Of a stretch of 64,000 nucleotides of DNA, positions 1 to 15,909 are shown piece by piece (position 1 is the stretch's first letter; each line of letters starts with the position of its first letter). Where the stretch lies: contig JAIQFN010000017.1 in NCBI GenBank assembly GCA_020073265.1, forward strand, positions 62,001 to 126,000. The letters are read 5' to 3'. The position numbers and the translations under genes were made by a program. The notes below the pieces were generated by a model that was given only the letters and a program-made list of their open reading frames with translations, searched no databases and was not told the origin of the DNA. This DNA comes from Terriglobia bacterium (GTDB lineage Bacteria; Acidobacteriota; Terriglobia; Bryobacterales; Bryobacteraceae).

Positions 1-1118
1 ATCCCGGCGGCGACGATCACCAGAAACGGCAGCAGGTAAGCACTGGTTGGGTTGTGGCGGGAGACTTCTTTAGCCGGATGCCGCACGCCTTCCACGGTGA
101 CCCAGGGCAGGCGGCGGGAGATCAACACGAAGCCCAGCGCCACGCAGTTGAAGGCGATCCATCCGGCTTGGGAGTGAAATCCGCCTACAGCTATGTTCGG
201 CGCGCCGGCCACGCCGATCAGAATCAGGGCGACGATTCGCGCCGCGTTGGACAACCACATGACCGCCATGCCGGCCGGAACCAAGACCAGGGCGTTGGGG
301 AAGCGGAACTCCTTCCGGAAATACCCCAGCCAGGCGACACTGAAGACCAGCATCAACGCGGTACCCTCAAAACCCGCGCACCACGGCAAGATTGTCACAT
401 TGAACTCAGGCGAGCCGATGGTCATCGTCGTCCAGTCGGTGATTACTCTGGGAAGTATGAGACGCAGCAAGACGTTGACCACGGCGAACGTCAGATCTGT
501 AGCAGCCTTCGAGGCAAAACCGAGAGCGGGAGCTCCGAGCAGAATACCCACCATGAGCAGGCGCGCGATGACCGCAATGGTCAGTGCAAATATCCAGGTG
601 TGGCCGGTGCTTCGCACCAGCCGCCAAGCCACGCGCGGCGGGACGAACGCACTCCCGCACAGACCAACCGCGAGCATGCCCGCTGCATACCACAGCGCGT
701 CATGCAGGGAACCCGTCGGGATCGGTAGAGCGGAAGGCAGGGATAGCCAGATGAACCCGCCATAAGCACAGAAATGCCCGAGCAGGAAGCCCCATCCAAG
801 GGATGTGTTCTCCAACTCAGAAGAGATCTGACGGAATGAATGTCCGAATTTGGTAAAGCCGATTGCCAACAGGAGTGAACAGAAAACAACGGTTATCTCT
901 AACAGCGAAGCCGCTCCGTGGCCTCCATCATGAAAGTAGAAAGCCAGCGGGACCCACTCAGCGACAAATAGCAGCGCGAAAAGAACGGACCTCTCGGCCA
1001 ATCCTAGTGACAGACGCCGCCTCGCGACGTCCGGCGCCCGCTGGTCGGCAGTCAAAGGAAAGGATGGTGGGCCGGTTATTGCCGGTGCTCCGACCCCTTG
1101 GGGACGTCTGCTTTCCAC
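1..1118 (-). CDS. xrtE: Exosortase E/protease (XrtE-like), 3' end cut by window edge
   Basis: Membrane transpeptidase-like enzyme expected to cut C-terminal sorting signals from exported proteins. In the XrtE family the exosortase is fused to a CPBP/CAAX-type protease. About 372 codons are present and the frame runs off the left edge without a stop. After several hydrophobic segments come the exosortase motifs: Cys248 in PWCAGFEG, Arg295 in the NAARI motif, and His316 in FHSQAGWIAFN. The last visible part (HNPTSAYLLPFLVIVAAG) looks like the start of the protease half. I chose the GTG start at 1118 because GAGGA lies 4 bases upstream (1122-1126). No VPEID-type substrate is visible in the window. 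The gene follows rfbB on the same strand but is separated by 395 bp, so it may have its own transcript. Family assignment is from motif recognition, not a search. Confidence 0.8.
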   Translation of the reverse strand, partial: MESRRPQGVGAPAITGPPSFPLTADQRAPDVARRRLSLGLAERSVLFALLFVAEWVPLAFYFHDGGHGAASLLEITVVFCSLLLAIGFTKFGHSFRQISSELENTSLGWGFLLGHFCAYGGFIWLSLPSALPIPTGSLHDALWYAAGMLAVGLCGSAFVPPRVAWRLVRSTGHTWIFALTIAVIARLLMVGILLGAPALGFASKAATDLTFAVVNVLLRLILPRVITDWTTMTIGSPEFNVTILPWCAGFEGTALMLVFSVAWLGYFRKEFRFPNALVLVPAGMAVMWLSNAARIVALILIGVAGAPNIAVGGFHSQAGWIAFNCVALGFVLISRRLPWVTVEGVRHPAKEVSRHNPTSAYLLPFLVIVAAG

Positions 1119-1513
1119 TAGTCCTCGGTAACTCGGGTAGGATCTGATTCTACCCACGCGTCGGCTTCGACCGCAAGGCTGCACGGTTCCCGAAGGAACC
1201 CTCGATCCTGACGGCCCGCTGCCAGTCTCATCTCTAGGGTGCTCCTAACACGCCATTCCGATTTTCAGAACGCCTCAATATTTGCACGCGCTTGTGGAGC
1301 GGGGCAAGAGATCGCCTGTCCTGTTTGTACTGGGCGTAGTACCGCGTACTACCAGTTCGTCTCTATAGAGCGCCAACGGCCGCCGTGAGCCGCACCCTGC
1401 CCATAAGAGGGCAATTGTTTTTTCGTTGCAATCGGCCGGCGGAACGGGGCGCGTCGGGTGGTTGGCAAATTCCGGGATTCATCGCCGCTCGGCGCGGTTA
1501 ACAAGTAGTCATC
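1119..1513. other. Intergenic region between rfbB and the exosortase E gene
   Basis: No convincing coding frame is seen in these 395 bp. Two hairpin-forming sequences occur: GGGTAG/CTACCC with a 9-base loop at 1135-1155, which would lie in the leader of the exosortase gene, and a UUCG tetraloop hairpin at 1185-1200. No promoter could be assigned with confidence. Confidence 0.5.
1185..1200 (-). terminator. UUCG tetraloop hairpin (terminator or structured leader)
   Basis: On the minus strand the sequence is GGTTCCTTCGGGAACC: a perfect 6-bp stem closed by C(UUCG)G, an unusually stable RNA tetraloop. It lies downstream of rfbB and upstream of the exosortase E gene. No U-tract follows it (the next bases are GTGCAGCC), so it is not a classical Rho-independent terminator. 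It could protect a 3' end or belong to the leader of the next gene. Confidence 0.35.
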
Positions 1514-2533
1514 TCATCCGACGCGCGCGCGATGGTCGTAGTTGCGCGCGTAGTACGACTGGTATTCGCCGGACTTCACGCGCCGCACCCACTTCTGGTT
1601 GGCGCGATACCACTCGACGGTAGCGGCCAGGCCGCGTTCGAAGTCCATCTGTGGCGTCCAGCCGGTTTCCTTCGAGAGCTTCGCACTCGAGAGCGCGTAG
1701 CGGCGGTCATGACCGGGCCGGTCCGTGACATGCTCGATCAGGCTGGAAGGTTTTCCGGTGATGGCCAGGATCCGGTCCACCACGGTCTTGTTCGGCAGGG
1801 ACCGGCCGCCGCCGATGTTGTAGATCTGGCCGTCGCGCCCTTTGTCGAGAATGGCCAGCAGCGCCCGGCAATGATCCTCCACGTACAGCCAATCGCGAAC
1901 CTGGAGTCCATCGCCGTACACCGGCAGCGGCTTGTCTTCGAGCGCGTTGGAGATCATCAGCGGGATCAGCTTTTCCGGAAACTGGTAGGGGCCGTAGTTG
2001 TTGGACGCGCGCGTGACGATCACCGGAAGCTTGTAGGTGGTGAAATAGCCGAGCGCCAGCAGATCGGAGCCGGCCTTGGCCGCCGAGTAGGGACTGCTCG
2101 GCCGCAGGGGAAAATCTTCGTCAGCTTCGAGCGGCGGCTCCAGGCTGCCGTAGACCTCGTCGGTAGACACGTGAACGAAGCGGCGCACGCGCTGGGCGCG
2201 CATGCTTTCGAGCAGGTTGAAACTGCCGCGCAGGTTGGTTTCAAAGACCGGCTGGGGCGCAAAAATGCTGCGATCCACGTGGGATTCCGCCGCGAAGTGG
2301 ACCACGGCCTCGGGCCTGGCCTCGTCAAAAATGCGGCGGAGTCCGGCCAGGTCGCAGAGGTCGGCCTTGACGAAGCGGTACTTGGGGTGATCGGCTACGG
2401 CGGTCAGGTTTTCGAGGTTGCCGGCGTAGGTGAGCGCGTCGACGTTGACGATTTCATGCGCGGGATTCTGGATCGCGAGACGGACGAAGCAAGACCCGAT
2501 GAAGCCGGCGCCGCCGGTGACGAGGATTTTCAT
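1514..2533 (-). CDS. rfbB: dTDP-glucose 4,6-dehydratase
   Basis: Converts dTDP-D-glucose to dTDP-4-keto-6-deoxy-D-glucose, the second step towards dTDP-L-rhamnose and other deoxysugars. It is a cytosolic short-chain dehydrogenase (SDR) of 339 residues, the usual family length. The N-terminus carries the NAD-binding TGGAGFIGS motif, followed by HFAAESHVDRS and STDEVYGS. YSAAKAGSDLL supplies the catalytic Tyr and Lys. An AGAGG Shine-Dalgarno sequence lies just before the ATG. The gene starts 6 bp after the DUF218 gene, so the two are co-transcribed. RfbA, RfbC and RfbD are not in the window, so it either draws on a pool made elsewhere or serves a sugar specific to this locus. Confidence 0.95.
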   Translation of the reverse strand: MKILVTGGAGFIGSCFVRLAIQNPAHEIVNVDALTYAGNLENLTAVADHPKYRFVKADLCDLAGLRRIFDEARPEAVVHFAAESHVDRSIFAPQPVFETNLRGSFNLLESMRAQRVRRFVHVSTDEVYGSLEPPLEADEDFPLRPSSPYSAAKAGSDLLALGYFTTYKLPVIVTRASNNYGPYQFPEKLIPLMISNALEDKPLPVYGDGLQVRDWLYVEDHCRALLAILDKGRDGQIYNIGGGRSLPNKTVVDRILAITGKPSSLIEHVTDRPGHDRRYALSSAKLSKETGWTPQMDFERGLAATVEWYRANQKWVRRVKSGEYQSYYARNYDHRARVG

Positions 2534-2539
2534 TCGCCT

Positions 2540-3271
2540 CTATTTTCTCATAGCAATGCAGGCGGGCTCGGTTTTCATCCAGGTTCCGCGGTTTGAACTG
2601 AGCAAGCTCCGCAGCGCTAAGACCCCGCGATTGATCCGATAGGCAGGGTAGGCGACTAGCACCGATCCCAGTATTTTGCTCCATTCCGAGAAAAACAGCG
2701 CCCGCGAGCTCGGGTCGCTCCACCAGCGTTCAGCGTGGTAGTGCGAATCCGGAGCCGGCGCGAAAGTGAAATGGAATCCCGGACAAAACAGCCGGAACAG
2801 GAGCGCGCACCGCCGGGAGTGGTAATCGCTCGTCACCACGAGCACCCACCTGACATGGCGCCTCGTAAGTTCACCGCGCAGTGCCAGGACTTCCCCGAGG
2901 GTTGAGGTTTCGTTATGACCGAACACGGCGAACCAGCCGCTTGGATATCCCTGCTTGACCAGTGAATCGACGGCCAACTCTCCTTCCGGCCGGTCGCGAT
3001 AGGGAGGTCCGCTGATCAACACCAGGGGTGCGAAACCCCGTTGGGCTAGCTCCGCCGCGGCTGTGACTCGCGGCCCCCAGAAATCTCCACCCATGACCAG
3101 AATGAGGTCCGCGGGCTCCGGCGGTTGGGAATAGACCAGAAAATTTCCCAGCCAGGTCAAGGTTCCCTGCCAGCGCACGAGCGCAATGAACAGCACACTC
3201 GCGAAAACCAGCAGCAATGCACGGACGGTCCAACGCATCGTCGTTCGTAGCCGTGCCGATCGGGACCGCAT
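2540..3271 (-). CDS. DUF218 / YdcF-SanA family membrane-anchored protein
   Basis: A 243-residue protein with one N-terminal membrane segment (about residues 13-34) followed by an extracytoplasmic domain of the DUF218 type. Typical stretches are ADLILVMGGD, LISGPPYRD, an Asn-Glu-Thr-Ser-Thr segment (HNETSTLGEV), and VVTSDYHSRRC near residue 150. Family members such as SanA, YdcF and ElyC are linked to envelope integrity or envelope-precursor metabolism, but their chemistry is poorly defined. The gene lies 6 bp upstream of rfbB on the same strand, suggesting a shared role in envelope or surface polysaccharide formation. The family call is firm; the function is unknown. Confidence 0.8.
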   Translation of the reverse strand: MRSRSARLRTTMRWTVRALLLVFASVLFIALVRWQGTLTWLGNFLVYSQPPEPADLILVMGGDFWGPRVTAAAELAQRGFAPLVLISGPPYRDRPEGELAVDSLVKQGYPSGWFAVFGHNETSTLGEVLALRGELTRRHVRWVLVVTSDYHSRRCALLFRLFCPGFHFTFAPAPDSHYHAERWWSDPSSRALFFSEWSKILGSVLVAYPAYRINRGVLALRSLLSSNRGTWMKTEPACIAMRK

Positions 3272-3376
3272 CTCGGTTTCATTTTATCCAGGCGCCGGGG
3301 CTGCCGCCGCGTATTACCCTGGCGCATGACTCGCGGCGCGTTTGCACTGTAAGATCAACAAGGAGTCAATGTTGCG

Positions 3377-4249
3377 ATGAAACTTAGGCAGGCATTTCTG
3401 GGGTTGATTTTCGGCGCGGCTCTCGCGCAGAACCCGCCGGCGAACGGGGGTCTCACGGTGCAGGTGGATGGCACTACCATTAGCACGCGTAGCAAATTGA
3501 ACCTTACCGCCGGAAACGGCATCGTCGAACGCTGCGTCGATAACCAGCGCGACCAGCGCGTGGATTGTTCCTCTTCCTACAATTCCGCTTTGCTCGCCAC
3601 GCACGACACCATCGAGGCAAACGAGGATTATTGCTACTCCGTAAACCGGACCACTTCGTATGCGTGCCATCTTCCTTTCAAGGCTCTTGTAAGGTACGCG
3701 GCCGGCATGACCTTCCTTCTCAACACCGACACAACCTGTTCGACATTCTGCACCGTCAATATCGACAACCTCGGCGCAATCAGCCTCAAACAGATTGACG
3801 GCACAACGGATCCTGCCGGCACGCTGGTGGCCGGCCAGCCGCACTGGATTTTCTACGATGGCCGCATCTTTCGGCTGTTGGGCGCAGCAGCCGCGGGGCC
3901 CCGGGACCAGCGAGGCGATGTTATGGCCCGTCGCCTGATCGGAACCATGGACACAATGCCTTATACCGCCACGATCGTGCTGGATGTAACGGCCGGCGAT
4001 TTGCACAAGACCACCACCGCCAATAGCGTCGGCAACGCCGTCATCAACGCGGCTACCGGCGGCTTGCCCGGCCAGCACATGTGGGTCATCATCGTGAACG
4101 ATACCATCAGCGGCAAGACCGTCATTTTCGGGTCGAACTTCCGAAGCGCCGGCGGCGTGGCCGGAACGCCCGGTAAAGCTGCTACTATCCAGTTTGTTTC
4201 CGACGGAACCGCTTGGTACGAGGTCGCGCGAACGTTGAGTCTTCAGTGA
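3377..4249 (+). CDS. Secreted protein of unknown function, tail-fibre-like C-terminus
   Basis: A 290-residue protein with a short signal peptide ending near ALAQ (residue 18). The middle (about 50-135) contains several cysteines, including a CSTFC pair. The last 100 residues are rich in Gly, Thr and Asn (NAVINAATGGLPGQHMW, then GKTVIFGSNFRSAGG) and resemble the beta-structured ends of phage tail fibres and secreted spike proteins. That resemblance is an impression only. AAGGAG at 3359-3364 precedes the ATG at 3377; a closer ATG at 3369 is followed at once by a stop. The gene is divergent from the DUF218 gene and convergent with the GNAT gene. I cannot assign a function. Confidence 0.6.
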   Translation: MKLRQAFLGLIFGAALAQNPPANGGLTVQVDGTTISTRSKLNLTAGNGIVERCVDNQRDQRVDCSSSYNSALLATHDTIEANEDYCYSVNRTTSYACHLPFKALVRYAAGMTFLLNTDTTCSTFCTVNIDNLGAISLKQIDGTTDPAGTLVAGQPHWIFYDGRIFRLLGAAAAGPRDQRGDVMARRLIGTMDTMPYTATIVLDVTAGDLHKTTTANSVGNAVINAATGGLPGQHMWVIIVNDTISGKTVIFGSNFRSAGGVAGTPGKAATIQFVSDGTAWYEVARTLSLQ

Positions 4250-4278
4250 GCCGGAGACGGCGCGCGACTCGCTCGGAC

Positions 4279-4294
4279 CCAGGCGCGCGCCTGG
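4279..4294. terminator. Candidate bidirectional terminator (GC palindrome)
   Basis: CCAGGCGCGCGCCTGG is a perfect 16-bp palindrome (6-bp stem with a GCGC loop). It lies between two convergent genes and directly abuts the stop codon of the minus-strand GNAT gene. No clear U-tract follows on either side, so the terminator reading rests on position and symmetry. Confidence 0.4.
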
Positions 4295-4798
4295 CTAGTG
4301 TTGCGTGAAGTCCCAGACCATCTGCCGCAGTTCTTCGTGCCAGCCGAGTTGCCGGTAGAACCGGATGCCGTCCGGGTTCTCCGCGACAACCTGCAATTCG
4401 ACCCGCGTGATCTCTTGAACCTTGAACCATTCCAGGGCGAATGCGAGAACGCGGCGTCCGATTCCGCCGCTGCGGTGCGATTCGGAGACGAAAACTTCGC
4501 TAATTGCGCCGATGGTTGCCGAGCCGAAGTAGGGCGGCAGCGCGCGAACCCGGCCGGCTACGAAGGCGATGATCTCTCCGTTCATCTCGCCCACCACGAT
4601 ATTGGCGAAGCGGCCCAAAAACGGAGCCATGGACTGGACCCAGGCGTCATAGGCCCCTTCTGGCAGCCGCAGCAACATGCCGTGCTCGAACTGGTGCTGA
4701 TACAAGGCGTGCCAGAGCGGCTTGATCCGCGCAAGGTCTTCGGCGGTGGCGTGCCGCAGGATCAAATCGGGCTGCGTCGATTCCTCAGGCTTTGTCAT
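4295..4798 (-). CDS. GNAT family N-acetyltransferase
   Basis: A 167-residue GNAT-fold enzyme that transfers an acyl group from acyl-CoA to an amine. Motif A is visible as VFVSESHRSGGIGRRVL (R-x-G-G-x-G-R, the pyrophosphate-binding loop), and the C-terminal VVAENPDGIRFYRQLGW is typical of the family. Its start overlaps the end of the carrier-protein ligase gene by 14 bases, so translation is probably coupled. In this context the likely substrate is the amino group of the amino acid handled by the module, or an amino sugar of the polymer. That is inference. It is the last gene of the minus-strand set. Confidence 0.85.
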   Translation of the reverse strand: MTKPEESTQPDLILRHATAEDLARIKPLWHALYQHQFEHGMLLRLPEGAYDAWVQSMAPFLGRFANIVVGEMNGEIIAFVAGRVRALPPYFGSATIGAISEVFVSESHRSGGIGRRVLAFALEWFKVQEITRVELQVVAENPDGIRFYRQLGWHEELRQMVWDFTQH

Positions 4799-5981
4799 GG
4801 GCCGCGCTCGCAGTTATGGCTGCGTCCAACGCCGCCGGCCATTGCTTCTGGTCGAGCCCATGCTGAGCCAGAAACGCCAGCGCCAGTCTCTCATAGCCAA
4901 AGCCCAGACAGCCGGTATGCGCCGGAGCGCCCGCCGCCTGGATGGCGAACGAGCGTCCGAAGAAGTCCTGGTGATAGTTGATGGACCCCACGGCCAGCTT
5001 CTTGCCGCTGTATGGCAGAGGCGCCAACAACTCGAACTTGAGCTCGAAGCCCTGCTGGTAGGCGGCTTGCACCGCGTAGCTGTCTACGAAGAATGGATCC
5101 GTCGCAGTGCTGATTTCGTATGCCATTCCCAGTTCGTCCAGGAAACGGGCCGATAGATCGACCAGCCGGTCGCGGCTGGCCAAGACATACTCGGCCGGCC
5201 CGACGAAAACGATTTCCCGCATCGTGAAGTCCCACAGCCGCTCGAGCCCTGTCAGATTGCTGGACTCGTAGCGAAAACACTTGCCGAGGGCGGTGATCGC
5301 TCGAGGCTCCTTCAGCTCGACGTCGCGAAGCCAGCGATACCAGTGAAAACATACCGAGGGAGACAGCAGACATTCCACGCCGCTGGCGCCATTGCGATCG
5401 TAGGCCAACTGCTCGCCGTCCCAGCGCACGGATTGAGAGAATTCCTGAAGCACACTATGGTCTTCGCGCAAGTGGCTCACCAGATTGAGAGAAGCTGGAA
5501 AATTCTTCAAGTACCGGCAGGTGTCCAGCACGTCGGCGCCGATCAGCGCTGGGAAATTGTAGGGATCCGCCTGGAAGCTGGCGGCCATTTCCCGGCTGCG
5601 TTGCTCGAAGAACTCGATCAGGCGCACCAGCTTCGGGCCGAAACCATAGCGGCCCCGGCCGAAAGCGATGATATCGCCCCGCTGTTGCAATTCCGCATGC
5701 GGGTCTTGCCGATAGGAACCCGGCAGCGCCTCCCGTTTTACCAGAACGCGAGATGATCCCGGCCGGTAGTTTAAACACAACTTGTCGGCAATTTCGGAAA
5801 TGCGGGATGCAACCAAGTCGCGTTGGTTCTCGAAACCCGGCCGAAGATCGAACATCACGCGCTGCGCCCCATCCAGCAGGCGGACGTTGGTGATGCCTTC
5901 GGATACGTAGGGTATCCGTTTCAGAAATTCATCGATCAACTCTACCGGGACTGTCGTGTTCAGATCTGCCTGTGCGTTCAT
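4785..5981 (-). CDS. Amino acid:[carrier protein] ligase, class-II seryl-tRNA-synthetase-like
   Basis: 398 residues with a class-II synthetase catalytic core but no tRNA-binding arm. Motif 2 is CFRYES (235-240) with the following DFTMRE; motif 3 is GFGYER (360-365). Cys211, Glu256 and Cys358 fall where methanogenic-type SerRS and the Bradyrhizobium amino acid:[carrier protein] ligases bind the active-site zinc. Such enzymes activate a small amino acid with ATP and load it on the phosphopantetheine arm of a carrier protein rather than on tRNA. A carrier-protein gene lies 17 bp upstream, which strongly supports this role. The first 80 or so residues are an extension I do not recognise. A GAGG Shine-Dalgarno lies 4 bases before the ATG. 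Amino acid specificity cannot be read by eye; Gly or Ala is the family expectation. Confidence 0.85.
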   Translation of the reverse strand: MNAQADLNTTVPVELIDEFLKRIPYVSEGITNVRLLDGAQRVMFDLRPGFENQRDLVASRISEIADKLCLNYRPGSSRVLVKREALPGSYRQDPHAELQQRGDIIAFGRGRYGFGPKLVRLIEFFEQRSREMAASFQADPYNFPALIGADVLDTCRYLKNFPASLNLVSHLREDHSVLQEFSQSVRWDGEQLAYDRNGASGVECLLSPSVCFHWYRWLRDVELKEPRAITALGKCFRYESSNLTGLERLWDFTMREIVFVGPAEYVLASRDRLVDLSARFLDELGMAYEISTATDPFFVDSYAVQAAYQQGFELKFELLAPLPYSGKKLAVGSINYHQDFFGRSFAIQAAGAPAHTGCLGFGYERLALAFLAQHGLDQKQWPAALDAAITASAAHDKA

Positions 5982-5998
5982 GAAACCTCGATTCAGCG

Positions 5999-6247
5999 CT
6001 AAGCCGGCTTTCGCAGCGTTTTGGCGATGGCCTCTACATCCACCAGTTGGGGCAACAGGTAGGGCGGGAACCGGGTGTTAAACTCTTTTTCGAGCTCCAT
6101 CACCACCATCATGTGCCCCATCGAATCCCAGCCGGGAGTCGATCCCATGCGCAAAGGCGTGGAGGAACCAGGATCCGCAATCTTCAACGCCCTCATCACC
6201 GCCCCCGCAATGCGCTGTTCGATACTCTCGTTCGGAGAACTTGTCAT
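5999..6247 (-). CDS. Acyl/aminoacyl carrier protein
   Basis: An 82-residue carrier protein of the ACP/PCP fold. GWDSMGHM carries Ser42, the expected 4'-phosphopantetheine attachment site, in the usual D-S-x context. A strong AGGAGG Shine-Dalgarno lies a few bases before the ATG at 6247. It sits between the MBOAT gene (25 bp upstream) and the synthetase-like ligase (17 bp downstream) on the same strand. It is therefore the probable cytosolic carrier that receives the amino acid from the ligase and presents it to the MBOAT transferase, as DltC does in Gram-positive bacteria. A phosphopantetheinyl transferase must act in trans; none is in the window. Confidence 0.9.
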   Translation of the reverse strand: MTSSPNESIEQRIAGAVMRALKIADPGSSTPLRMGSTPGWDSMGHMMVVMELEKEFNTRFPPYLLPQLVDVEAIAKTLRKPA

Positions 6248-6272
6248 CGCATTCCTCCTGGCCGCCGCATGA

Positions 6273-7424
6273 TCATAGGACAGCCAACTTCTGAAGAATC
6301 TTGGATGGCAGATACCAGCACATGCATACGCTGAAATAGGTCAACACCCGCGCACCCATATTCGCTAGGCGAGTTCCGGCCAGCGGGAGTCTCGGGAGTG
6401 CCCCTCGATACTTTCGCCAGAGCAGGAAGATGGTGAACAACAGGCCGTGTAGGAACCCCCACAAAACCCAGTATGCATTGGCAGCATGCCATAAACCGAC
6501 CAAAGTAAACAAAAGGATGGTGTTGAAATAAATATTGTAGGTTCGCCGACCCCAGCGATTGTAGAACAGATAGTCGCGGAAGACATAGGTAGCGGTCATG
6601 TTCCAATTCATCCAGAATGCCGAGATGTTCTCCCGGCCGACCGGGAAGTTAAAGCTGGGGGGAATCTTGACCCCAGCCGGGCGCGCCAGCAGCTCCATCC
6701 AATGGAAGTATCCCGCCGTGGTCAGATAAAAACCGATCGGACCAGTCACGAAAGCGCTGATGGCATTGTCGAAATAGTGAGCCTGCGGAAAATGCGTCCT
6801 CAATAGCTGTTGGCCGAAATTCAAGGAAACGCCCACCATCAATTTCGCCGTGGCGGCGGCCGCCTCAAACCACCAGCCGGCGGACGCCAGCGTACGCCAG
6901 TCAATGACCAGTGTGCCGGGCATCTGCGAAAAGCGCAATACCGGGCCGCTCAGCGTGAATGGCAGGCATATCCAGAGCACGTAGGTGAGTAACGTGGGCG
7001 CGGGCAGACTGCCGGATCCGACCTCCCAGAACAGGGTCATCAGTTTCAGTGTCGGCCACATCCCGAGGCTCAACAGTACGATCGGCCCCAGCCCCGCCAC
7101 AGACCAGTAGCGCTCCCATTGTTCCACGCGTGCCAGAGTGAACACCCCTGCCAGCACCAGCATCGCGACGCAGGCCCAGCGCCAGCGCTGCTCCGGCGAG
7201 GTGGCCCCGCAAAGGCCCCGCATGACAGCGTATGCGGCCGCGCTGACCAGCACGAATCCCGGAAATTCCCGGCCGTAGTAGACCCCGGCTGCAATGATGC
7301 TGAGTGTACAGGCGTACCAAGTTTGTCGGAAGAACGGAATCAGCAGGAGCACACCCGAGAACGCCGCAGCTACGGCGATGCCTGCGAGATAGTGTGGATC
7401 AACTGTCAATGTGGCGACTTGCAT
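6273..7424 (-). CDS. MBOAT family membrane acyltransferase (DltB/AlgI-like)
   Basis: A 383-residue polytopic protein of the membrane-bound O-acyltransferase superfamily, to which DltB and AlgI belong. They move an activated acyl or aminoacyl group across or at the membrane onto an extracytoplasmic polymer. Visible marks are LSGPVLRFSQMP (159-169), FWMNWNMTATYVFRDYLF (270-287), and LVGLWHAANAYWVLWGFLHG (308-327), with the likely catalytic His313. In most relatives the FWxxW is followed by His; here it is Asn275. It is the first of four closely spaced genes (MBOAT, carrier, ligase, GNAT), so its donor is probably the aminoacylated carrier protein. No DltD or AlgJ-type periplasmic partner is seen nearby. 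Confidence 0.85.
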   Translation of the reverse strand: MQVATLTVDPHYLAGIAVAAAFSGVLLLIPFFRQTWYACTLSIIAAGVYYGREFPGFVLVSAAAYAVMRGLCGATSPEQRWRWACVAMLVLAGVFTLARVEQWERYWSVAGLGPIVLLSLGMWPTLKLMTLFWEVGSGSLPAPTLLTYVLWICLPFTLSGPVLRFSQMPGTLVIDWRTLASAGWWFEAAAATAKLMVGVSLNFGQQLLRTHFPQAHYFDNAISAFVTGPIGFYLTTAGYFHWMELLARPAGVKIPPSFNFPVGRENISAFWMNWNMTATYVFRDYLFYNRWGRRTYNIYFNTILLFTLVGLWHAANAYWVLWGFLHGLLFTIFLLWRKYRGALPRLPLAGTRLANMGARVLTYFSVCMCWYLPSKILQKLAVL

Positions 7425-7612
7425 CGAGTCCTATTTCGGAGTGCAGAGGACGCCCTCCGGTTGTCTACTGGACAGCCGTCCTTGATTGACAGTGTGGCAT
7501 AGCGTGTCGTTCTGTGGAAATTGGGGCGTAGGTTCTAAGCTCTCTATACTACCCTAAACATCATTTGAGATTACATTCGTGGTCCTGCCGCACCGGCCAC
7601 GCAGTTCTCTGG

Positions 7613-9196
7613 CTAAAAAGCGTCGGCGAAGCGCCAGGCCTTCGGGCGCTGGCTCCGGTCGGCGTCAATCTGCGGTGCCGCGCAACTGGAGTCCACCGTC
7701 TGGACTTGCCCATTGGTGGCCAGCAGCACGATGCGGTCGCCTGCGAGCGGACCGGGCGGGTGGGGGCAGGCCAGCAGCCCCGATATCAGCCTGCGCTGTT
7801 CTGGGGAATCCGCCTTGAGGTTTTGAAGAATCCGTATGGACGGCGACAGCCCGTTGGCTTGGAGAGCGCCGCCCAGACTCGTGGAAAACACAGGAACAAT
7901 GTAGGGATCAAGGAAAGCGGTGACGTCCACCAGGTCCACCTCTCCGCCAGCCGGAAGCCGAGAGGCGCGATCCACCGTCACTCGCACGATCTGGGCTGCT
8001 TCTGAACCCGCTCGCTTGTATAGGTCGCGGAAGGTGGACAATTGGAACCACGCGAAGCCCGCATAGACCCCCAGCGCAGTCCAAATCGAGGCTTTGTACA
8101 GGGCGCGGCCGTCGGACTTGACCGTCCGATCCAGGAGCAGTCCCAGGAAAATAGCCACTCCTAAGAAAGGAACGAAAAGATACCGGTCCGAATTGAAGGC
8201 TGCGGCAAACGCGGCGGTAGGAAGGATGGTGAAGAACAGCCAGCCGGCCGCAAGTACAAGTACGGACAGAGCCTTAGCCCTCCACACGGCCAGCAGCGCC
8301 AGACACAACTCGCCCGCCAATATCGCCAAGTGTTGCGGCAGCAGGGTCTTGAATCCCAGCGGCAGCATGGAAAATGGCAAGGCGAGGTTGATCCAGGCGC
8401 GTATGAGGCCGGCCAGGGCGCTGCTGACGTTATGGAAACCATAGAAGCCGCCCGTGCGGCGGCCGGAGAGGCTGGCCAATCCCGCGTCGGCGAAGAAGTA
8501 CCCGCTGTATCCGATCAGGATCGCGGCGAACGGGATGTAAGCCCGCCAGAAGGCTGGCTTACGAACGAAAGCGAGAGAGCGTTCGCGGTACACATCTAAT
8601 AACACTAAAAGCACGGGGATGACAGCTGTCGTTTCCTTGAAACCGAGTGCGACTATATAAGCGGCTGCGGAGCAGGTCAGACTAAACGAGCTCGTCGAGT
8701 TCCGGTAGTCTAGGAAGCAAATGCATGCTAGCAATACACATCCGGCCGCGACCAGGTCCTGCCAGGCGGCAAACCAAAGCAGAACCTCCTCGTTTCTTGG
8801 GAACAAGGCCACGGCGAGAACCGCAAGCCAACCGGCCGCGCGGCTCGCGCCTAAGCGACGCATCAGTGCGAATAGCAGCGCAAGGTCAGCCGTGAAACTC
8901 AGCGCGATCAGCAGCCGATAGGGCCACACCCGCTGGACTCCCACCAGGCTGCCAAGCAGATGACACAGCACGTTTCGGAGCGGCCGATGGAGTTCGTCGC
9001 CGCTGCTCGCTAATGGAAATTTCAACGATTCGACAAGCAGCCCAAAATCGTCTCCCACGAGACCGAGACTGCGAATCCACAAGAAAATCGCTGGCAACAG
9101 CAGTAGCCAGACGGCGAAGTCGACCACCGTCAGGCTACGGTCTTGCAGTGGCGCACTAGCGCCTGGGTCCATCTTCATCGCGATAGGTTGTTCCAT
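7613..9196 (-). CDS. Polytopic GT-C-like glycosyltransferase or related membrane protein
   Basis: A 527-residue membrane protein with roughly ten or more hydrophobic segments between residues 25 and 390, then a soluble C-terminal part. An acidic GDDFG motif follows the first membrane segment (about residue 48), where GT-C glycosyltransferases keep a catalytic acidic pair. Such enzymes use lipid-linked sugars to glycosylate polymers or proteins on the outer face of the membrane. A second in-frame ATG lies 18 bases after the first; neither has a good Shine-Dalgarno. It shares the strand of the MBOAT set but is separated from it by 188 bp. The GT-C reading is moderate; the substrate is unknown. 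Confidence 0.6.
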   Translation of the reverse strand: MEQPIAMKMDPGASAPLQDRSLTVVDFAVWLLLLPAIFLWIRSLGLVGDDFGLLVESLKFPLASSGDELHRPLRNVLCHLLGSLVGVQRVWPYRLLIALSFTADLALLFALMRRLGASRAAGWLAVLAVALFPRNEEVLLWFAAWQDLVAAGCVLLACICFLDYRNSTSSFSLTCSAAAYIVALGFKETTAVIPVLLVLLDVYRERSLAFVRKPAFWRAYIPFAAILIGYSGYFFADAGLASLSGRRTGGFYGFHNVSSALAGLIRAWINLALPFSMLPLGFKTLLPQHLAILAGELCLALLAVWRAKALSVLVLAAGWLFFTILPTAAFAAAFNSDRYLFVPFLGVAIFLGLLLDRTVKSDGRALYKASIWTALGVYAGFAWFQLSTFRDLYKRAGSEAAQIVRVTVDRASRLPAGGEVDLVDVTAFLDPYIVPVFSTSLGGALQANGLSPSIRILQNLKADSPEQRRLISGLLACPHPPGPLAGDRIVLLATNGQVQTVDSSCAAPQIDADRSQRPKAWRFADAF

Positions 9197-9266
9197 TTTG
9201 CCGTCGGTGGCGGGACCTCGGGAGAGTCACCGCCGGTCGGACCAGGCATTGTCAGCGATTGGCCGG

Positions 9267-10169
9267 CTACCGCGAACGCCCGAGCCTGCGGTGGCGTTGC
9301 TGAAAGGCTGTAACAACCGAAGCCATCTCCGGTCCGGTGAGCTCAGAGGGATCGCAGCTTGGAAGCCCCTTCATGCATGCTTCGACATTGCGTTGTCGCA
9401 GGGCTGCACGCGTCGCGTTCAGATCCGCACCCGATAAGCTTAGAGGATTGCAGTTGGCCAGTCCATTTTCGCAACTTGACCGATTCCGCCTTTGCGCTTC
9501 GGCTCGAACTTCTTTAGCCTCGGCCTCGGTAAGCAAGAAGGGGTCGCAGCTGGACGACCCGGTCAGGCAGCGGTCGCGATTGCGCCGCAGCCTCCCAGCT
9601 TGAACGGAGGCCGCCGTTTGCGGCGTCAGTTGCACGGGATCGCATTGCGATGAGCCGCTCATGCAGTGATCTAAGTTTCTCCGCGCCGCCGCAGCCTCCA
9701 CCAGCTTGCTCTGGTCTTTCGTCAGACGGAGCGGATCGCAGGTGGGTGATCCACTCATGCATTTGTCGAAATTGCGCTGCGCCGCAGCGGTCGTGACCGG
9801 CGCCAGATCGCTCGGCTTCAGCGACAGCGGGTCGCAGGTCGGCGATCCACTGGAGCATTTTTCCAAATTGCGCCGATAGGTCGCGGTCTGCACCAATTTG
9901 GCCTCATCGGCGGTCAGACGGGTAGGATCGCAAAGCGTGGGACCTTCCATGCAGTAATTGAAATTACGTTTCTTCGAGGCGATGGCAACCTGCTTCAGTT
10001 CGTCGGAATTCAAGATCGAAAAATCGCACCCAGACAGCCCCCTCAGGCAGGTCGCAAGATTGCTTTGATCGGGCAGGGGGGGCTTGGTTTTCGGCTGGGC
10101 AACCATGGGCCGTAAGCATAGACCAAAACACGCTATTCGAAGGGCGCTCCAGATGTCCATGTAGTCCAT
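9267..10169 (-). CDS. Protein of eight 32-residue Cys repeats, unknown function
   Basis: 300 residues. After a hydrophobic, perhaps signal-like N-terminus (about 1-25), residues 37-292 are exactly eight consecutive 32-residue repeats with no insertion or deletion. The consensus is N-x3-C-x2-G-x3-C-x4-L-x14-R, and N1, C5, G8, C12, L17 and R32 are invariant in all eight. The repeats end in an eight-residue basic tail. The pattern suggests a disulfide-bearing loop followed by a helix in each unit, giving an elongated extracytoplasmic rod or binding scaffold. I do not recognise a named family. Two in-frame ATGs lie 9 bases apart (10169 and 10160), and neither has a clear Shine-Dalgarno. It is divergent from the exopolysaccharide operon and shares its control region. 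Confidence 0.75.
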   Translation of the reverse strand: MDYMDIWSALRIACFGLCLRPMVAQPKTKPPLPDQSNLATCLRGLSGCDFSILNSDELKQVAIASKKRNFNYCMEGPTLCDPTRLTADEAKLVQTATYRRNLEKCSSGSPTCDPLSLKPSDLAPVTTAAAQRNFDKCMSGSPTCDPLRLTKDQSKLVEAAAARRNLDHCMSGSSQCDPVQLTPQTAASVQAGRLRRNRDRCLTGSSSCDPFLLTEAEAKEVRAEAQRRNRSSCENGLANCNPLSLSGADLNATRAALRQRNVEACMKGLPSCDPSELTGPEMASVVTAFQQRHRRLGRSR

Positions 10170-10204
10170 GTAGCTAGTGTCGCCTATTTTTCATACGGAT
10201 GGCT

Positions 10205-10299
10205 AGTACTAGTACTTCCAAGGACTTACTAGAACTTAAGTTCATTGACACTTGTCATATCGATCGGCCATACTCCAAGGTGCGCGCTGACATTTGTCA
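10205..10299. promoter_or_regulatory. Three palindromes at 41-42 bp spacing in the divergent control region
   Basis: The 277 bp between the repeat-protein gene and the ribbon-helix-helix gene hold a perfect palindrome AGTACTAGTACT (10205-10216) and two near-identical inverted repeats: TGACACTTGTCA (10246-10257) and TGACATTTGTCA (10288-10299). Centres are 41 and 42 bp apart, close to four helical turns, so proteins bound at all three would face the same side of the DNA. The two TGACA-n2-TGTCA copies are good operator candidates. I found no confident -35/-10 pair or sigma-54 element. Confidence 0.55.
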
Positions 10300-10446
10300 A
10301 AAGTTTGGTTGGCAAGGCGCGCACAAACCAGTGCCTGTTTTGCATCTGTCGGAAGCCAGGAATGGGACCGAAAGGGCGGTAGCCTGTCAGTAGCCAGGCC
10401 CCAGGATCCCCGCACGAAGCCAGTTGACGAAACCGGGAGGCAAGCT

Positions 10447-10794
10447 GTGGCGGTATTAAAACCACGAGAACGATTAGTCTACTTCCGAGTATCCGAAGAT
10501 GAATTCCGGCAGTTCGTGAGCGTATGCGAACAAGCTGGCGCGCGCAGCCTGTCGGATCTAGCGCGAAGCGCGGTCCAGCGCCTGATCGCAGATGGAGACC
10601 GGCGCCATTCCGACGATCAGTTGGCCGACAAGATGCACCGCCTGGAAAAACTGATTTCTAAGGTGACTGAACAGTTGCAGTTGTTGAACGGCGGCAACGG
10701 GCAGGAAAAAGCCGGGGATGACATGGTTGGCAACGGCGCGCGGCATTCCCTCGAGCCTGAGTCTTGTGACAAAAACGGCCGGGGAGACGAATAA
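10447..10794 (+). CDS. Small ribbon-helix-helix-like regulator with C-terminal coiled coil
   Basis: A 115-residue protein. The first 50 residues (LVYFRVSEDEFRQF then SLSDLARSAVQRLI) fit a ribbon-helix-helix fold: a short beta strand followed by two helices, as in CopG/Arc-type regulators. Residues 58-80 form a likely helix or coiled coil, and the tail is polar. The frame stays open far upstream, but the GTG at 10447 is preceded by GGGAGG at 10435-10440, ideal spacing, so I start there. It lies 6 bp before the Wzc-type kinase gene and directly downstream of the palindromic control region, so it may regulate this operon and itself. The fold is a judgement from pattern only. Confidence 0.6.
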   Translation: MAVLKPRERLVYFRVSEDEFRQFVSVCEQAGARSLSDLARSAVQRLIADGDRRHSDDQLADKMHRLEKLISKVTEQLQLLNGGNGQEKAGDDMVGNGARHSLEPESCDKNGRGDE

Positions 10795-10800
10795 ACGCAT

Positions 10801-13092
10801 ATGCAATTTCTTCCGAATGGTTCGTCCGACGATCGCAACAACTTACCCATCTTGGCCGGCAACGGCTTGAGCGTGGACAGCGAACGGTATTCCTATGAGC
10901 CGATGAGCCCCGCAGCGCCGCAACCCGAGAACGCGATCAACGTCGGCCGCCTGATCCGAAAATACTGGCTGCTGCTGCTGCTGTTGTTGATCCTGGGTGG
11001 CGGGGCTGGGTTCGTTTCGGTGCTCCTGAGCTCACCGCTTTACAAGGCTCATCTCCTCCTAGAAGTGCAGGCTTCCACCGGTGTGTTCGGCAAAAACGGG
11101 ATCTCCGACGCTTCCAATTCCGAAGCCAGCGAAGTCGGCATTCAAACTCAGATCAACATCCTGCGCAGCGGCACGTTTCTAAGACGCGGCGCTGAGCGAT
11201 TGCAGCAGGACACGGTTCCGCTGGCGCCCACCGGACGTGATTTATTCTCTCGCCTGCGCCAAAGGATCCATCCCGCTATTCAGGATCCGCTGGAGAACGC
11301 CAAGCAAGGTCTCAACGTCGCGATTTCCAGCTTCAATGCCAGTCCGGTCAATCATACCCGTCTGATCGAGCTGACCTGCGACTCCACCAGCCCGGACGTG
11401 GCGGCGCAATTCTTGAATTCGATGGCGAACGAGTACCTGGACGATAGCATGCGGTCGCGCATGCAGGCTTCGCAGAAGACCAGCGAATGGCTGGCAGCTT
11501 CGATTGAGGAAACCAAAGCCAAGATGGGCGATGCGGAGGAGCACCTGCGGGAATTCGTACAAGCCTCCGGAAACATCTTTGCAGGACAGGACGCCACATT
11601 GGAGGATACCAAGCTGGCCAATCTAAAAATTGATCTGGCCAGGATCCAGGCCGACCGTATCGCAAGGCAGAGCCGCTATGAGCTGACCTTGAAGTACCCT
11701 CCGGAAACGCTGGCGGAGATCCTGGAAGACGCAGTGCTGCGGGGTTATCAGCAGCAGATTGAAGCCCTGAAGCGGGATAAAGCGGGGCTGGAGACCAAGT
11801 ACACGCCGAAGCATGAAAGGGTGCGGGAACTGGATGCCAGGCTGGCGGCCTTGGAGAAAGCTTATCAGAACGAAATCCACAGCGTGATCACGCGAATCAA
11901 GAACGACTACGAGGCCGCCTTAAGCCAGGAAAAGTTGCTGACCGCCGACTACAACCGGCAGTCGCAGCGGGTCGGCTCGCAAGCCGCCAAGTCGGCGCAA
12001 TACGTGGCCCTCAGGCGGGAAGCCGAGACTCTGCACCAGGTGTATCAATCTCTGCTGATGCAGCAGAGCGAAGCTGGGTTGAGCAGTTCCGTGCCGGTCA
12101 ATCCCATTCGGGTCGTAGAGGCCGCCAACCCACCCCTGCTTCCCTATAAGCCGCAACCGGTTCTGAATATATCGTTCGGCTGCCTGTTGGGCCTGGTGCT
12201 GACGGGCGGATTGATGTGCCTGCGGGAGCGGATGGATGAAAGCATCCGGACGCCAGGCGCATCACGCCGGCTCTTCAACATACCCGAATTGGGCGTCATT
12301 CCGAACCTCGGCGCCAACGGCAATGGATCCAGAGCCTGGCGTTCTCTGGCTGGCGCCAAGGCTCTGAACGGTGCGACCAGCGACCCAGCAGCGGCTCTGG
12401 TGACCTGGCAAAGCGGGCCTTCCTTCATCACCGAGTCGTTCCGCGGCACGCTGGCCTCGATCCTGCGGAACCAAAACAGCGGAAAGCAGCAGCGGATCGT
12501 TCTGATCACCAGCCCGGGGCCTTCGGAGGGCAAGACAACGGTGATTCAGAACCTGGGCATCGCACTGGCCGAGACGGGCCGGCGCGTGTTGTTGGTAGAC
12601 GCCGATTTTCGCCGGCCGCATCTGCATCGCAAGTTCGGTCTGCCGGATGAGTGGGGTTTGAAGAACATACTTGCCGAAGATCTGCCTCTGAGCACCTATC
12701 CGGCCGAGCGTTTGGGGGTGGACACCGGATTTCCGGGATTGTCGCTGTTAGCCAACGGGTCGGGAACGGAACAGGCCAACGTTTCGCGATCGCTGTATTC
12801 GCCCCGGTTGCGGGAGATCTTCGAAGACCTCACCAAGCGCTACGACATGGTGCTGGTGGATGCGCCGCCCATCCTCAACGTGGCCGACGCCCGCATCATC
12901 GCGCCGCTCGCCGACGCACTGATATTGGTTTTGCGCTGCGGGATCACCGACCGCGCCAGCGCCATGGAAGCTTACCAGCGGATCCAGGAAGATGGTCTGA
13001 CCCTTCTTGGAACTGTGCTGACCGACTACGATCTGCGTTCGGATCGGAAACGTCAATACTACTACGAGTATGGCGATACCAGTCGAGCCTAA
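10801..13092 (+). CDS. Wzc-type polysaccharide copolymerase / bacterial tyrosine kinase
   Basis: 763 residues of the usual Wzc/EpsB architecture. There is a short cytosolic N-terminus, a membrane segment near 57-79, a periplasmic Wzz domain with long coiled coil (about 80-450), a second membrane segment near 453-475, and a cytosolic BY-kinase domain. The kinase shows Walker A SPGPSEGKTT (about 571-580), Walker A' VLLVDADFRRP (about 597-607) and Walker B MVLVDAPP (about 683). A tyrosine cluster, QYYYEY, near the C-terminus is the autophosphorylation site. It controls chain length and export of exopolysaccharide through cycles of phosphorylation. Its 3' end overlaps the exosortase gene by 23 bases. 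No partner outer-membrane channel (Wza) or phosphatase lies in the window. Confidence 0.92.
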   Translation: MQFLPNGSSDDRNNLPILAGNGLSVDSERYSYEPMSPAAPQPENAINVGRLIRKYWLLLLLLLILGGGAGFVSVLLSSPLYKAHLLLEVQASTGVFGKNGISDASNSEASEVGIQTQINILRSGTFLRRGAERLQQDTVPLAPTGRDLFSRLRQRIHPAIQDPLENAKQGLNVAISSFNASPVNHTRLIELTCDSTSPDVAAQFLNSMANEYLDDSMRSRMQASQKTSEWLAASIEETKAKMGDAEEHLREFVQASGNIFAGQDATLEDTKLANLKIDLARIQADRIARQSRYELTLKYPPETLAEILEDAVLRGYQQQIEALKRDKAGLETKYTPKHERVRELDARLAALEKAYQNEIHSVITRIKNDYEAALSQEKLLTADYNRQSQRVGSQAAKSAQYVALRREAETLHQVYQSLLMQQSEAGLSSSVPVNPIRVVEAANPPLLPYKPQPVLNISFGCLLGLVLTGGLMCLRERMDESIRTPGASRRLFNIPELGVIPNLGANGNGSRAWRSLAGAKALNGATSDPAAALVTWQSGPSFITESFRGTLASILRNQNSGKQQRIVLITSPGPSEGKTTVIQNLGIALAETGRRVLLVDADFRRPHLHRKFGLPDEWGLKNILAEDLPLSTYPAERLGVDTGFPGLSLLANGSGTEQANVSRSLYSPRLREIFEDLTKRYDMVLVDAPPILNVADARIIAPLADALILVLRCGITDRASAMEAYQRIQEDGLTLLGTVLTDYDLRSDRKRQYYYEYGDTSRA

Positions 13093-13978
13093 GAACAGCG
13101 AACAACCAACGCTCGGCCAGCCATCGCGCTGGAAGGCTTTGGCCGGCCTGCCCGTGCAAATGGGCTTGTTGAGCGTTCTGCTCTTGGTGGCCTTTTGGCC
13201 GATCTTAACCGGCATGTATGGAAGCTGGTTCGATGAGCATGCCTACATGGAACACGGGGTGCTGGTGGCTCCGGCCGCGGCCTACATGGCGTGGACTAAG
13301 AAGGAACGGCTGAAAACCATTCCCCGCAAGCCGTCACTGTGGGGCGTCTTCCTGCTGGTGTGGGGAGCTTCGCAAGCGTTACTTGGCGTCGCCGCACAAT
13401 GGGTCTGGGCCAGCCGGACTGCTTTCCTGATCTCGCTGGTGGGATGCATCGCCCTCTTGTTTGGCTTGCAAATGGTAAAGGAGCTGACGTATCCGTTAGG
13501 AGTGCTCATTTTAATGGTTGCTCCGCCGACCTTCATTTTTGAGCGTGTCACTCTTTCGCTGCAGTTGCTCGCCAGCCGGCTGGGCGAGAGCTGTCTGGAA
13601 TTGCTCGGGTATTCGGTGTTGCGGGAAGGGAACATTCTGGAATTGGTTGGAGTCAAGCTGTCGGTGGAAGAGGCCTGCAGCGGGATCCGTTCGTTGCTGG
13701 CGATCCTGTTCATGTGCGCCATGTACAACTACTTCTTTGTGGAGGGGCGCTCCTTGCGGGCCTGGATTTTTGCCCTGGCGGTACCGATTGCAATCCTGGG
13801 AAACGCCGGGCGGATTGTGGCGACCGGCATCGCCAGCCAGTACAACCGGTCCCTGATCAGCGGAACGGCGCATGAGACTTTCGGCTACGTGAGCGTGGCA
13901 ATCGCGGCGGTAGGCTGCATGATGGTCCATATCGCTCTGATCTCAATCCAAAGGGCGTGGCGCTCTTATCATGGCTAG
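13070..13978 (+). CDS. xrt: Exosortase (EpsH family)
   Basis: A 302-residue polytopic membrane protein with about eight hydrophobic segments. The transpeptidase-like triad is present: Cys203 in VEEACSGIRSLLAI, Arg248 in ILGNAGRIVATG and His268 in GTAHETFGYVSV. Exosortases cleave short C-terminal sorting tags (PEP-CTERM and variants) from exported proteins. In many bacteria their genes sit inside exopolysaccharide loci, as here. The start overlaps the kinase gene by 23 bases and the stop overlaps the epsI gene by 8, so the three are translationally coupled. No PEP-CTERM-like substrate is visible in the window. The subtype (XrtA, B, etc.) cannot be settled by eye. Confidence 0.92.
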   Translation: MAIPVEPKNSEQPTLGQPSRWKALAGLPVQMGLLSVLLLVAFWPILTGMYGSWFDEHAYMEHGVLVAPAAAYMAWTKKERLKTIPRKPSLWGVFLLVWGASQALLGVAAQWVWASRTAFLISLVGCIALLFGLQMVKELTYPLGVLILMVAPPTFIFERVTLSLQLLASRLGESCLELLGYSVLREGNILELVGVKLSVEEACSGIRSLLAILFMCAMYNYFFVEGRSLRAWIFALAVPIAILGNAGRIVATGIASQYNRSLISGTAHETFGYVSVAIAAVGCMMVHIALISIQRAWRSYHG

Positions 13979-14648
13979 ATTCCAGTTCTCCGGCTCCGTT
14001 CGAATCGGTCTGTTCGCCGCGGTCTGCCTGCTGCTGGTGTTGCAGGCCAGCGCTTACCGGCTGGTCAGCATCGATGAGCGCAGCCTGCCGATTCCCGGAC
14101 TCAAGACGCTTCCAATGCAAATCGGGTCATGGAAAGCGGGCGGTGAGCAGTCTTTGGATGCCGGCATCGCCGAATATCTCCGGCCGGACGAATATATCCT
14201 GCGTGATTACATCGCCGGCGGCCGCGCGGCGACAGTCAATCTGTTTATCGCTTATTTCCGGTCCCTCGAAAAGACCTACGGCCCGCACGCCCCGCGGATA
14301 TGCCTCCCAGGGTCCGGATGGCTGGAAACTTCAGCCCAGGTCACTCGCGTTCCGGTGCCGGGACCGCTCGGAACCATTCCGGTCAACGAGATGGTGTACG
14401 AGAAGTCCGGAGGCCGCATTCTGGTGTTGTACTGGTATCAGAATAGCCGGAATATCTGGGCCGAAGAGTTTCAGGCCAAGCTCAGACTACTGCCGGACTT
14501 GATCCGCTACCGCCGGTCCGACGTGAGCCTGGTACGTGTGATCGTGCCATTGCAAGGCAGCGTCCCCGGTACCGAACTCACCGATTCCCTCCGATTCACC
14601 GAGCTGCTGTTCCCGCAGCTAACCGACCGGCTAGGAGCCAGCAAGTAG
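13971..14648 (+). CDS. epsI: Exosortase-associated protein EpsI
   Basis: A 225-residue protein with one N-terminal membrane anchor (about 11-30) and an extracytoplasmic domain of the EpsI/DUF3485 family. Typical features are the IGSWKAGGE segment near residue 47, YFRSLEKTYGPHAPRICLPGSGW (split here as YFRSLEKTYG at about 94-103 and ICLPGSGW at 108-115) and VLYWYQ near 150. EpsI is either fused to the C-terminus of an exosortase or encoded next to it. Its biochemical role is not settled, but it is tied to exopolysaccharide and exosortase systems. It overlaps the exosortase gene by 8 bases. Confidence 0.9.
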   Translation: MARFQFSGSVRIGLFAAVCLLLVLQASAYRLVSIDERSLPIPGLKTLPMQIGSWKAGGEQSLDAGIAEYLRPDEYILRDYIAGGRAATVNLFIAYFRSLEKTYGPHAPRICLPGSGWLETSAQVTRVPVPGPLGTIPVNEMVYEKSGGRILVLYWYQNSRNIWAEEFQAKLRLLPDLIRYRRSDVSLVRVIVPLQGSVPGTELTDSLRFTELLFPQLTDRLGASK

Positions 14649-14654
14649 CCTGGC

Positions 14655-15905: not shown

Positions 15906-15909
15906 GAAC

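Follow-up and report, generated by a model that had tools for sequence, protein, structure and literature searches.

A candidate Dlt-like aminoacyl-transfer module with a tRNA synthetase-like loader in a Bryobacteraceae bacterium

In the Dlt pathway, D-alanine is loaded by DltA on the carrier DltC and moved by DltB across the membrane to teichoic acid. Another kind of loader is found in the Bll0957-type amino acid:[carrier protein] ligases, which were reportedly described by Mocibob et al. in 2010 and again in 2013. The first-pass annotation of the DNA analysed here held the downstream use of such ligases to be unclear, and passages of a 2022 review likewise give the biological role of their carrier loading as unknown (PMC9437257). 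The present study concerns a four-gene module at 4295-7424, on the minus strand, of a 64,000-nucleotide stretch from a Terriglobia bacterium (contig JAIQFN010000017.1, positions 62,001 to 126,000; hereafter the window). It encodes, in this order, an MBOAT, a carrier protein, a class II aminoacyl-tRNA synthetase (aaRS)-like ligase and a GNAT. From gene content, conserved residues, predicted folds and linkage, which are observed, we infer with moderate confidence a pathway of aminoacyl transfer that resembles Dlt but has an aaRS-like loader, together with its reactions, its amino acid and its acceptor. Four-gene sets of this kind in some soil and lake bacteria probably load an amino acid on a carrier by means of a relative of a tRNA-charging enzyme, and a membrane enzyme then probably hands it to the envelope. 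Among the papers listed in searches of the open-licence literature, judged by title and the start of the abstract, none joins such ligases to an MBOAT.

The module resembles Dlt in that an ATP-dependent loader, a carrier and an MBOAT with the DltB fold are encoded side by side. It differs in its aaRS-like loader (none of the four genes encodes a DltA-type (ANL) ligase), in the additional GNAT and in its host, an acidobacterium, whereas Dlt hosts are Gram-positive bacteria with teichoic acid. A further difference concerns the acyl-shuttle motif FxYxxF, the Tyr of which is the acyl-bearing residue of DltX and PatA according to parts of one report (PMC12148441). The window type lacks this motif, has no recognised SGNH gene nearby, has Asn in place of the first MBOAT His and has a shorter carrier-docking segment. 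The module would work like Dlt but is no Dlt member, because the loader, the shuttle and the SGNH partner were tested and did not agree with those of Dlt. The MBOAT-SGNH O-acetylation systems PatA and AlgI share the MBOAT fold and the catalytic His, but these acetyl-CoA users have FxYxxF, whereas the window MBOAT lacks it and is accompanied by a carrier protein; an MBOAT-SGNH operon of another kind is mentioned in a passage of PMC12419801. Glycylation of Vibrio lipopolysaccharide by Alm is similar in that a loader, a carrier and an acyltransferase set an amino acid on the envelope. However, AlmG has an LPLAT domain and the Alm loader resembles DltA in the account given in sections of PMC3783018, both unlike the window module. 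The features of the module are as follows.

6273..7424, minus strand: MBOAT, DltB-like, 383 amino acids (open reading frame (ORF), family model, profile, predicted structure)
6600-6602, minus strand: Asn N275 of the MBOAT; His at the same position in the DltB and AlgI types compared
6486-6488, minus strand: catalytic His H313 of the MBOAT, invariant in the MBOATs compared
5999..6247, minus strand: carrier protein, 82 amino acids (ORF; phosphopantetheine site S41)
4785..5981, minus strand: class II aaRS-like amino acid:[carrier protein] ligase, 398 amino acids (Pfam, NCBIfam, PDB sequence, fold)
5349-5351, minus strand: zinc-ligand position C211 of the ligase
5214-5216, minus strand: zinc-ligand position E256 of the ligase
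4908-4910, minus strand: zinc-ligand position C358 of the ligase
4295..4798, minus strand: GNAT, 167 amino acids (ORF; PF00583)

The MBOAT and carrier genes are 25 bp apart and the carrier and ligase genes 17 bp, while ligase and GNAT overlap by 14 bp. The tight spacing described in the first-pass annotation was thus confirmed for all four reading frames, and the residues that it had named, C211, E256 and C358 in the ligase and the DSM site in the carrier (PGWDSMGHM), had been read correctly.

By its best NCBIfam family, by PDB sequence search and by predicted fold the window ligase belongs with the amino acid:[carrier protein] ligases. It matched PF00587 in Pfam at 3.3e-9 and the Bll0957 structures at 4.7e-33, and its best NCBIfam family was amino acid--[ACP] ligase NF005479 (175.7 bits, below the cut-off of 357). 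C211, E256, C358, R237, E239 and R365 were invariant across 58 aligned ligases, the last three of which residues we place in class II motifs 2/3. In the predicted model, which has a predicted local distance difference test score (pLDDT) of 93.6, residues 92-391 matched Bll0957 (3mey_A) with Z 31.9 and a root-mean-square deviation (rmsd) of 2.3 over 291 aligned residues. The likeness to the Bll0957 type therefore comprises class II core, zinc-ligand positions, fold and an adjacent carrier gene; the differences are about 90 extra residues at the N-terminus, an identity of 28-30%, the score below the NCBIfam cut-off and the MBOAT and GNAT partners. Structure comparison gave no identification for the fold of the first 90 residues. 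The top structural match of the model was an archaeal-type seryl-tRNA synthetase (SerRS), with a Z of 33.0 for residues 76-395, a value similar to that of Bll0957. This could be taken to mean that the ligase is a tRNA synthetase, the aminoacyl-tRNA of which is used by the GNAT or the MBOAT; in a pairwise search SerRS of M. barkeri aligned from ligase residue 42 on, which could point to a reduced SerRS N-domain at the N-terminus. Against this, the SerRS family profiles align only from residue 78 or 89 onward, the first 150 or so residues of SerRS appear to have no counterpart in the ligase, and a carrier gene adjoins. The host has its own serS elsewhere in the genome (535 bits), which rules out a housekeeping SerRS. 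A tRNA synthetase is therefore highly improbable.

The window MBOAT had no match in Pfam and reached 58 bits with the DltB model TIGR04091 (cut-off 375). A profile of eight relatives, however, matched the DltB structures (6bug) at 1.2e-28, and DltB (8jem_A) was the best match of the AlphaFold model (mean pLDDT 74.5), with Z 24.7 and rmsd 3.8 over 355 aligned residues. Residues 257-264 and 283-293 of this model, the docking segment, are mostly below 50 pLDDT, and the local shape there was not used. Asn was found at the N275 position in all seven window-type MBOATs and His in the six other MBOATs compared. The distance from this residue to the catalytic His was 38 residues in 7/7 of the window type, 40-42 in the six others and 47 in DltB, where it was counted on the profile alignment. 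None of the seven window-type MBOATs ends in FxYxxF. Two other matched MBOATs of the host genome end in FIYFQF and FIYTRF; therefore, the loss is special to the window MBOAT. One of these (host C11, L191:5222-10595, ending FIYTRF) lies near a 77-residue carrier-like DSF protein and a KAS III-like gene, as seen by eye. This set resembles that of L120 (Magnetococcales), in which a ligase, a carrier and a weakly KAS III-like gene accompany an MBOAT ending in FIYFQF.

The carrier matched PF00550 weakly (E 0.0063; 17.2 bits, cut-off 20.8), and its homologues in loci L055 and L132 passed. The GNAT matched PF00583 at 1e-14, and its R109, G112 and G114, which we take to be the acyl-CoA loop, were invariant in a six-row alignment. 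The site S41 of the carrier (codon 6125-6127) lies within GWDSMGHM. At Ser+1, Ser+4 and Ser+5, given as the DltC contacts in parts of PMC11035591, the window carrier has Met, Met and Met; in the carriers of L055 and L058 the first position is Leu or Met, the second Met and the third Glu.

Public genomes were scanned with an alignment of seven ligase rows; this gave 196 relatives, the best 80 of which served as loci. An MBOAT was present in eight of the 80, always 9-1522 bp from the ligase, both by phmmer with the window protein and by profile. The profile was built from seven of those eight, but phmmer with the window MBOAT alone found the same eight; therefore, the result was not made by the profile. 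Zones of about 1.5 kb around the ligase make up 16% of the 1.29 Mb of ligase loci, yet they hold all eight MBOATs, and these fall in two separate ligase clades, so that a chance neighbourhood is ruled out. Six of the loci (L053-L058; two Bryobacterales, one other acidobacterium and three Verrucomicrobiota) carry an MBOAT of the window kind, 28-58% identical to that of the window. The Acidobacteriota have the gene order MBOAT-carrier-ligase-GNAT, L058 has carrier-ligase-GNAT-MBOAT, and both L056 and L057 have carrier-ligase-MBOAT. A GNAT occurs in five of the six, at a distance of 3.7 kb in L056, and a six-frame search of L057 gave none. In L054 the stretch upstream of the MBOAT (L054:2474-2828) contains a short piece left over from a ligase C-terminus and part of a second GNAT, which looks like the trace of a tandem duplication of the module.

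A tree built from 62 ligases placed the window together with L053-L058 in one clade (support 100/99), and L132 with L007 (G125, the same as L048) formed a second, separate one. The MBOAT label required two changes on this tree versus 8.6 in shuffles, a comparison in which near-copies favour clustering. When 29 chosen rows including L195 were used, the two clades were recovered at 97/95 (window type) and 100/100 (L132/L048/L195). The truncated ligase and MBOAT of L120 were left out of the trees. Kinship (of the window with L053 and L054, and among L056-L058) inflates shares, and the argument rests on lineages instead. Genes were called by longest start and codon score, by which overlaps are overstated, and no ligase gene was called in L049, L149-L151, L071, L103, L107, L119 and L131. 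In addition, 237 genomes of the window's own family were searched. A ligase match was found in 24 and the long type (>400 bits) in 15, and in six of these 15 an MBOAT lies no more than about 1.5 kb away from it: G000, G1020 (L053), G1021 (L054), G104, G125 and G1036. Beyond the family, too, ligase matches were rare; samples gave 10 among 150 genomes of the order and 11 among 396 of the phylum, and the phylum to which G546 belongs gave 5 among 387. The first-pass annotation would have counted it as a refutation if the MBOAT were never linked to ligase-carrier pairs elsewhere. This is not the case: the linkage of ligase, carrier, MBOAT and GNAT recurs, and an MBOAT accompanies the ligase in 8/80 loci and 6/15 long-type family genomes.

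The second lineage (L132, L048 and L195) belongs to the window's bacterial family. L132 (acidobacterium UWPOB_ACIDO1; the same stretch as L046, G104) contains, in this order, an MBOAT, a 51-residue ORF ending in FVYVHF, an SGNH-like protein, a carrier, a ligase and an Acetyltransf_3-type GNAT. Its MBOAT scored 185.7 bits with TIGR04091 (cut-off 375), its SGNH-like protein is AlgX-type (PF16822 at 2.5e-8) and its carrier, with a DSF site, matched PF00550 at 8.8e-8. The 51-residue ORF had no Pfam or NCBIfam family; its size, single hydrophobic stretch, motif and place suggest that it is DltX-like. L132 thus appears, by its gene content, to hold every kind of Dlt part except DltA, with the aaRS-like ligase in DltA's place. 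In L048 (G125) and L195 (G1036) the shuttle motif is on the MBOAT itself, which ends in FVYFAF and is followed by a protein with SGNH-like motifs seen by eye; carrier, ligase and Acetyltransf_3 GNAT run divergently from this pair. As MBOAT modules are found in two separate ligase lineages, DltA's place was, by parsimony, taken by an aaRS-like ligase twice.

For the window module the following course is proposed. The ligase would adenylate a small amino acid (of the Gly, Ala or Ser type) and transfer it to the carrier's phosphopantetheine arm. The GNAT, in which the acyl-CoA loop is kept, would most likely N-acetylate the aminoacyl group while this is bound to the carrier, or else an amine closely related to it. 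At the cytoplasmic face, the carrier would then give up the (N-acetyl)aminoacyl group to the MBOAT, which would pass it through its tunnel to an outer-face acceptor, probably the hydroxyl of an exported or lipid-linked glycan. If true, Dlt logic can rest on a loader derived from translation, and an amino acid already bound to its carrier can be modified further by a GNAT. The linkage to DltB-like MBOATs, in one lineage with shuttle motif and SGNH-type genes, gives the ligases a testable role in envelope aminoacylation in acidobacteria and Verrucomicrobiota.

Several observations weigh against this pathway. In nine of the 15 long-type family genomes no MBOAT lies within 1.6 kb of the ligase. 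One of these, G1009 (L194), has a shuttle-bearing MBOAT about 6.5 kb off, which was not counted; the other eight have none in the stretch, and some of these stretches end at a contig end. The ligase and GNAT of L098/G367 also lie at a contig end, where an MBOAT would be missed, and the same holds for the ligase of L193, 0.7 kb from such an end. N275 and H313 are 38 residues apart, as opposed to 47 in DltB, and this is within the DltC-docking segment, which holds the helix where DltC docks according to parts of PMC11035591. Among the 227 ORFs (at least 20 residues) of window positions 1-16000, none ends in FxYxxF. A hidden DltX was sought among such ORFs in this region and in ten loci; strict matches were limited to the MBOATs of L120 and L048 and the 51-residue ORF of L132. 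Nor was any SGNH family found by Pfam among the tested neighbours of the window module, two of which (3377-4249 and 7613-9196) match no family. PF16822-type genes do occur elsewhere in the host genome (C62 above and C63 below the cut-off), and no FxYxxF ORF was present in the stretches around them, though an unlinked partner may exist. In L048 and L195 the SGNH genes were assigned by eye from their motifs, and Pfam passes only that of L132: it matches none for L048, gives 14.1 bits (cut-off 32.9) for L195 and also fails on the gene next to the C30 MBOAT of the host. For such SGNH-like genes a missing match therefore says little, in the window too.

Because the window MBOAT has neither a shuttle motif nor a recognised SGNH neighbour, its outer-face chemistry must differ from that of Dlt and Pat. 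The Dlt-like transfer claimed in the first-pass annotation is accordingly upheld for the linkage and amended for the chemistry at the outer face. Tentatively, an Asn-His MBOAT of the shuttle-free window type may hand N-acetyl-aminoacyl groups from the ligase-loaded carrier directly to the outer-face acceptor, without acyl-tyrosine relay or SGNH protein; by parsimony, such loaders may then have been combined with MBOATs on at least two occasions, with the relay in one case and without it in another. The missing partners would also suit a transfer of the aminoacyl group from carrier to a membrane lipid (giving an aminoacyl or N-acyl-aminoacyl lipid) in place of a polysaccharide, as such an acceptor would reach the MBOAT from the membrane and need neither SGNH protein nor shuttle. 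This agrees with the next structural matches of the MBOAT model, the eukaryotic MBOATs human PORCN (Z 23.3) and LPCAT3 (Z 21.3), which have other acceptors, and with the Verrucomicrobiota loci, which show no evident polysaccharide genes (by glance, not Pfam), a point that counts against the glycan. However, the window and L055 modules sit in polysaccharide gene regions. Beside and beyond the former are genes for RmlB, a Wzc-like kinase, an exosortase, several glycosyltransferases and Wzy- and Wzx-like proteins; near the latter are glycosyltransferases and an ABC transporter with a sub-threshold Wzt_C match. Moreover, the SGNH partner of L132 is AlgX-type, a glycan-acylating kind. A lipid is therefore rather unlikely, and an exported glycan would be the first choice of acceptor, with lipid second.

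Of the 80 loci, 38 contain a GNAT of the window kind, and in 34 of the 38 it starts from 151 bp before to 41 bp after the ligase stop, by our own gene calls; five of the 38 are included in the GNAT profile. Many of the ligases have another setting. Within 6 kb of the ligase, the 40 Chloroflexi-titled loci (L059-L096 without L071, plus L111, L118 and L123) contain GNAT (32), Antibiotic_NAT (31), DUF4910 (31), cytidylyltransferase (26) and NeuB (25) genes, the clusters being named from one representative each. An example is L123:6185-14000, where ligase and carrier, usually with a GNAT, accompany NeuB, cytidylyltransferase, Antibiotic_NAT and DUF4910. The gene content suggests aminoacyl decoration of nonulosonate-type sugars. 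An MBOAT occurs in none of the 40 and a GNAT in 32, which is a further point against the proposed pathway. In the window, too, ligase, carrier and GNAT might make an (N-acetyl-)aminoacyl unit that is used on a nucleotide sugar in the cytoplasm, the MBOAT being an ordinary O-acyltransferase that shares the operon. Yet the MBOAT is linked to the ligase in two separate lineages, in the first with changed gene order, and the genomes searched with the window MBOAT showed no whole protein of its kind apart from such a ligase: its best match in 149 other genomes of the order had 70 bits versus 875 for itself, and in 14 chosen genomes the only other near match was a 66-residue fragment in G544, 50% identical. 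Cytoplasmic use is thus quite improbable for the window. Under the Dlt-like pathway, the shared unit would make a modified aminoacyl-carrier, delivered in Chloroflexi by an Antibiotic_NAT-like protein to an intracellular sugar and in the window clade across the membrane by the MBOAT.

In a third setting (Paenibacillus, Streptomyces and others), related ligases lie near acyl-CoA dehydrogenase and ketosynthase or polyketide synthase (PKS)-type genes. In L104, L112, L114, L116, L121 and L127 the ligases are found by acyl-CoA dehydrogenase genes, some with 3-hydroxyacyl-CoA dehydrogenase and PKS-type genes, and these sets could, we presume, make aminomalonyl-type extender units. The short-type ligase in L050 also adjoins an acyl-CoA dehydrogenase-like gene. 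Genes that single-linkage clustering had grouped as ligase-like turned out to be S-adenosylmethionine methyltransferases, with the exception of L100, which has two tandem ligases. Outside the module, at 9267-10169 on the minus strand of the window, a 300-residue ORF with a sub-threshold Pfam match only consists of repeats of about 34 residues with paired Cys, as seen by eye.

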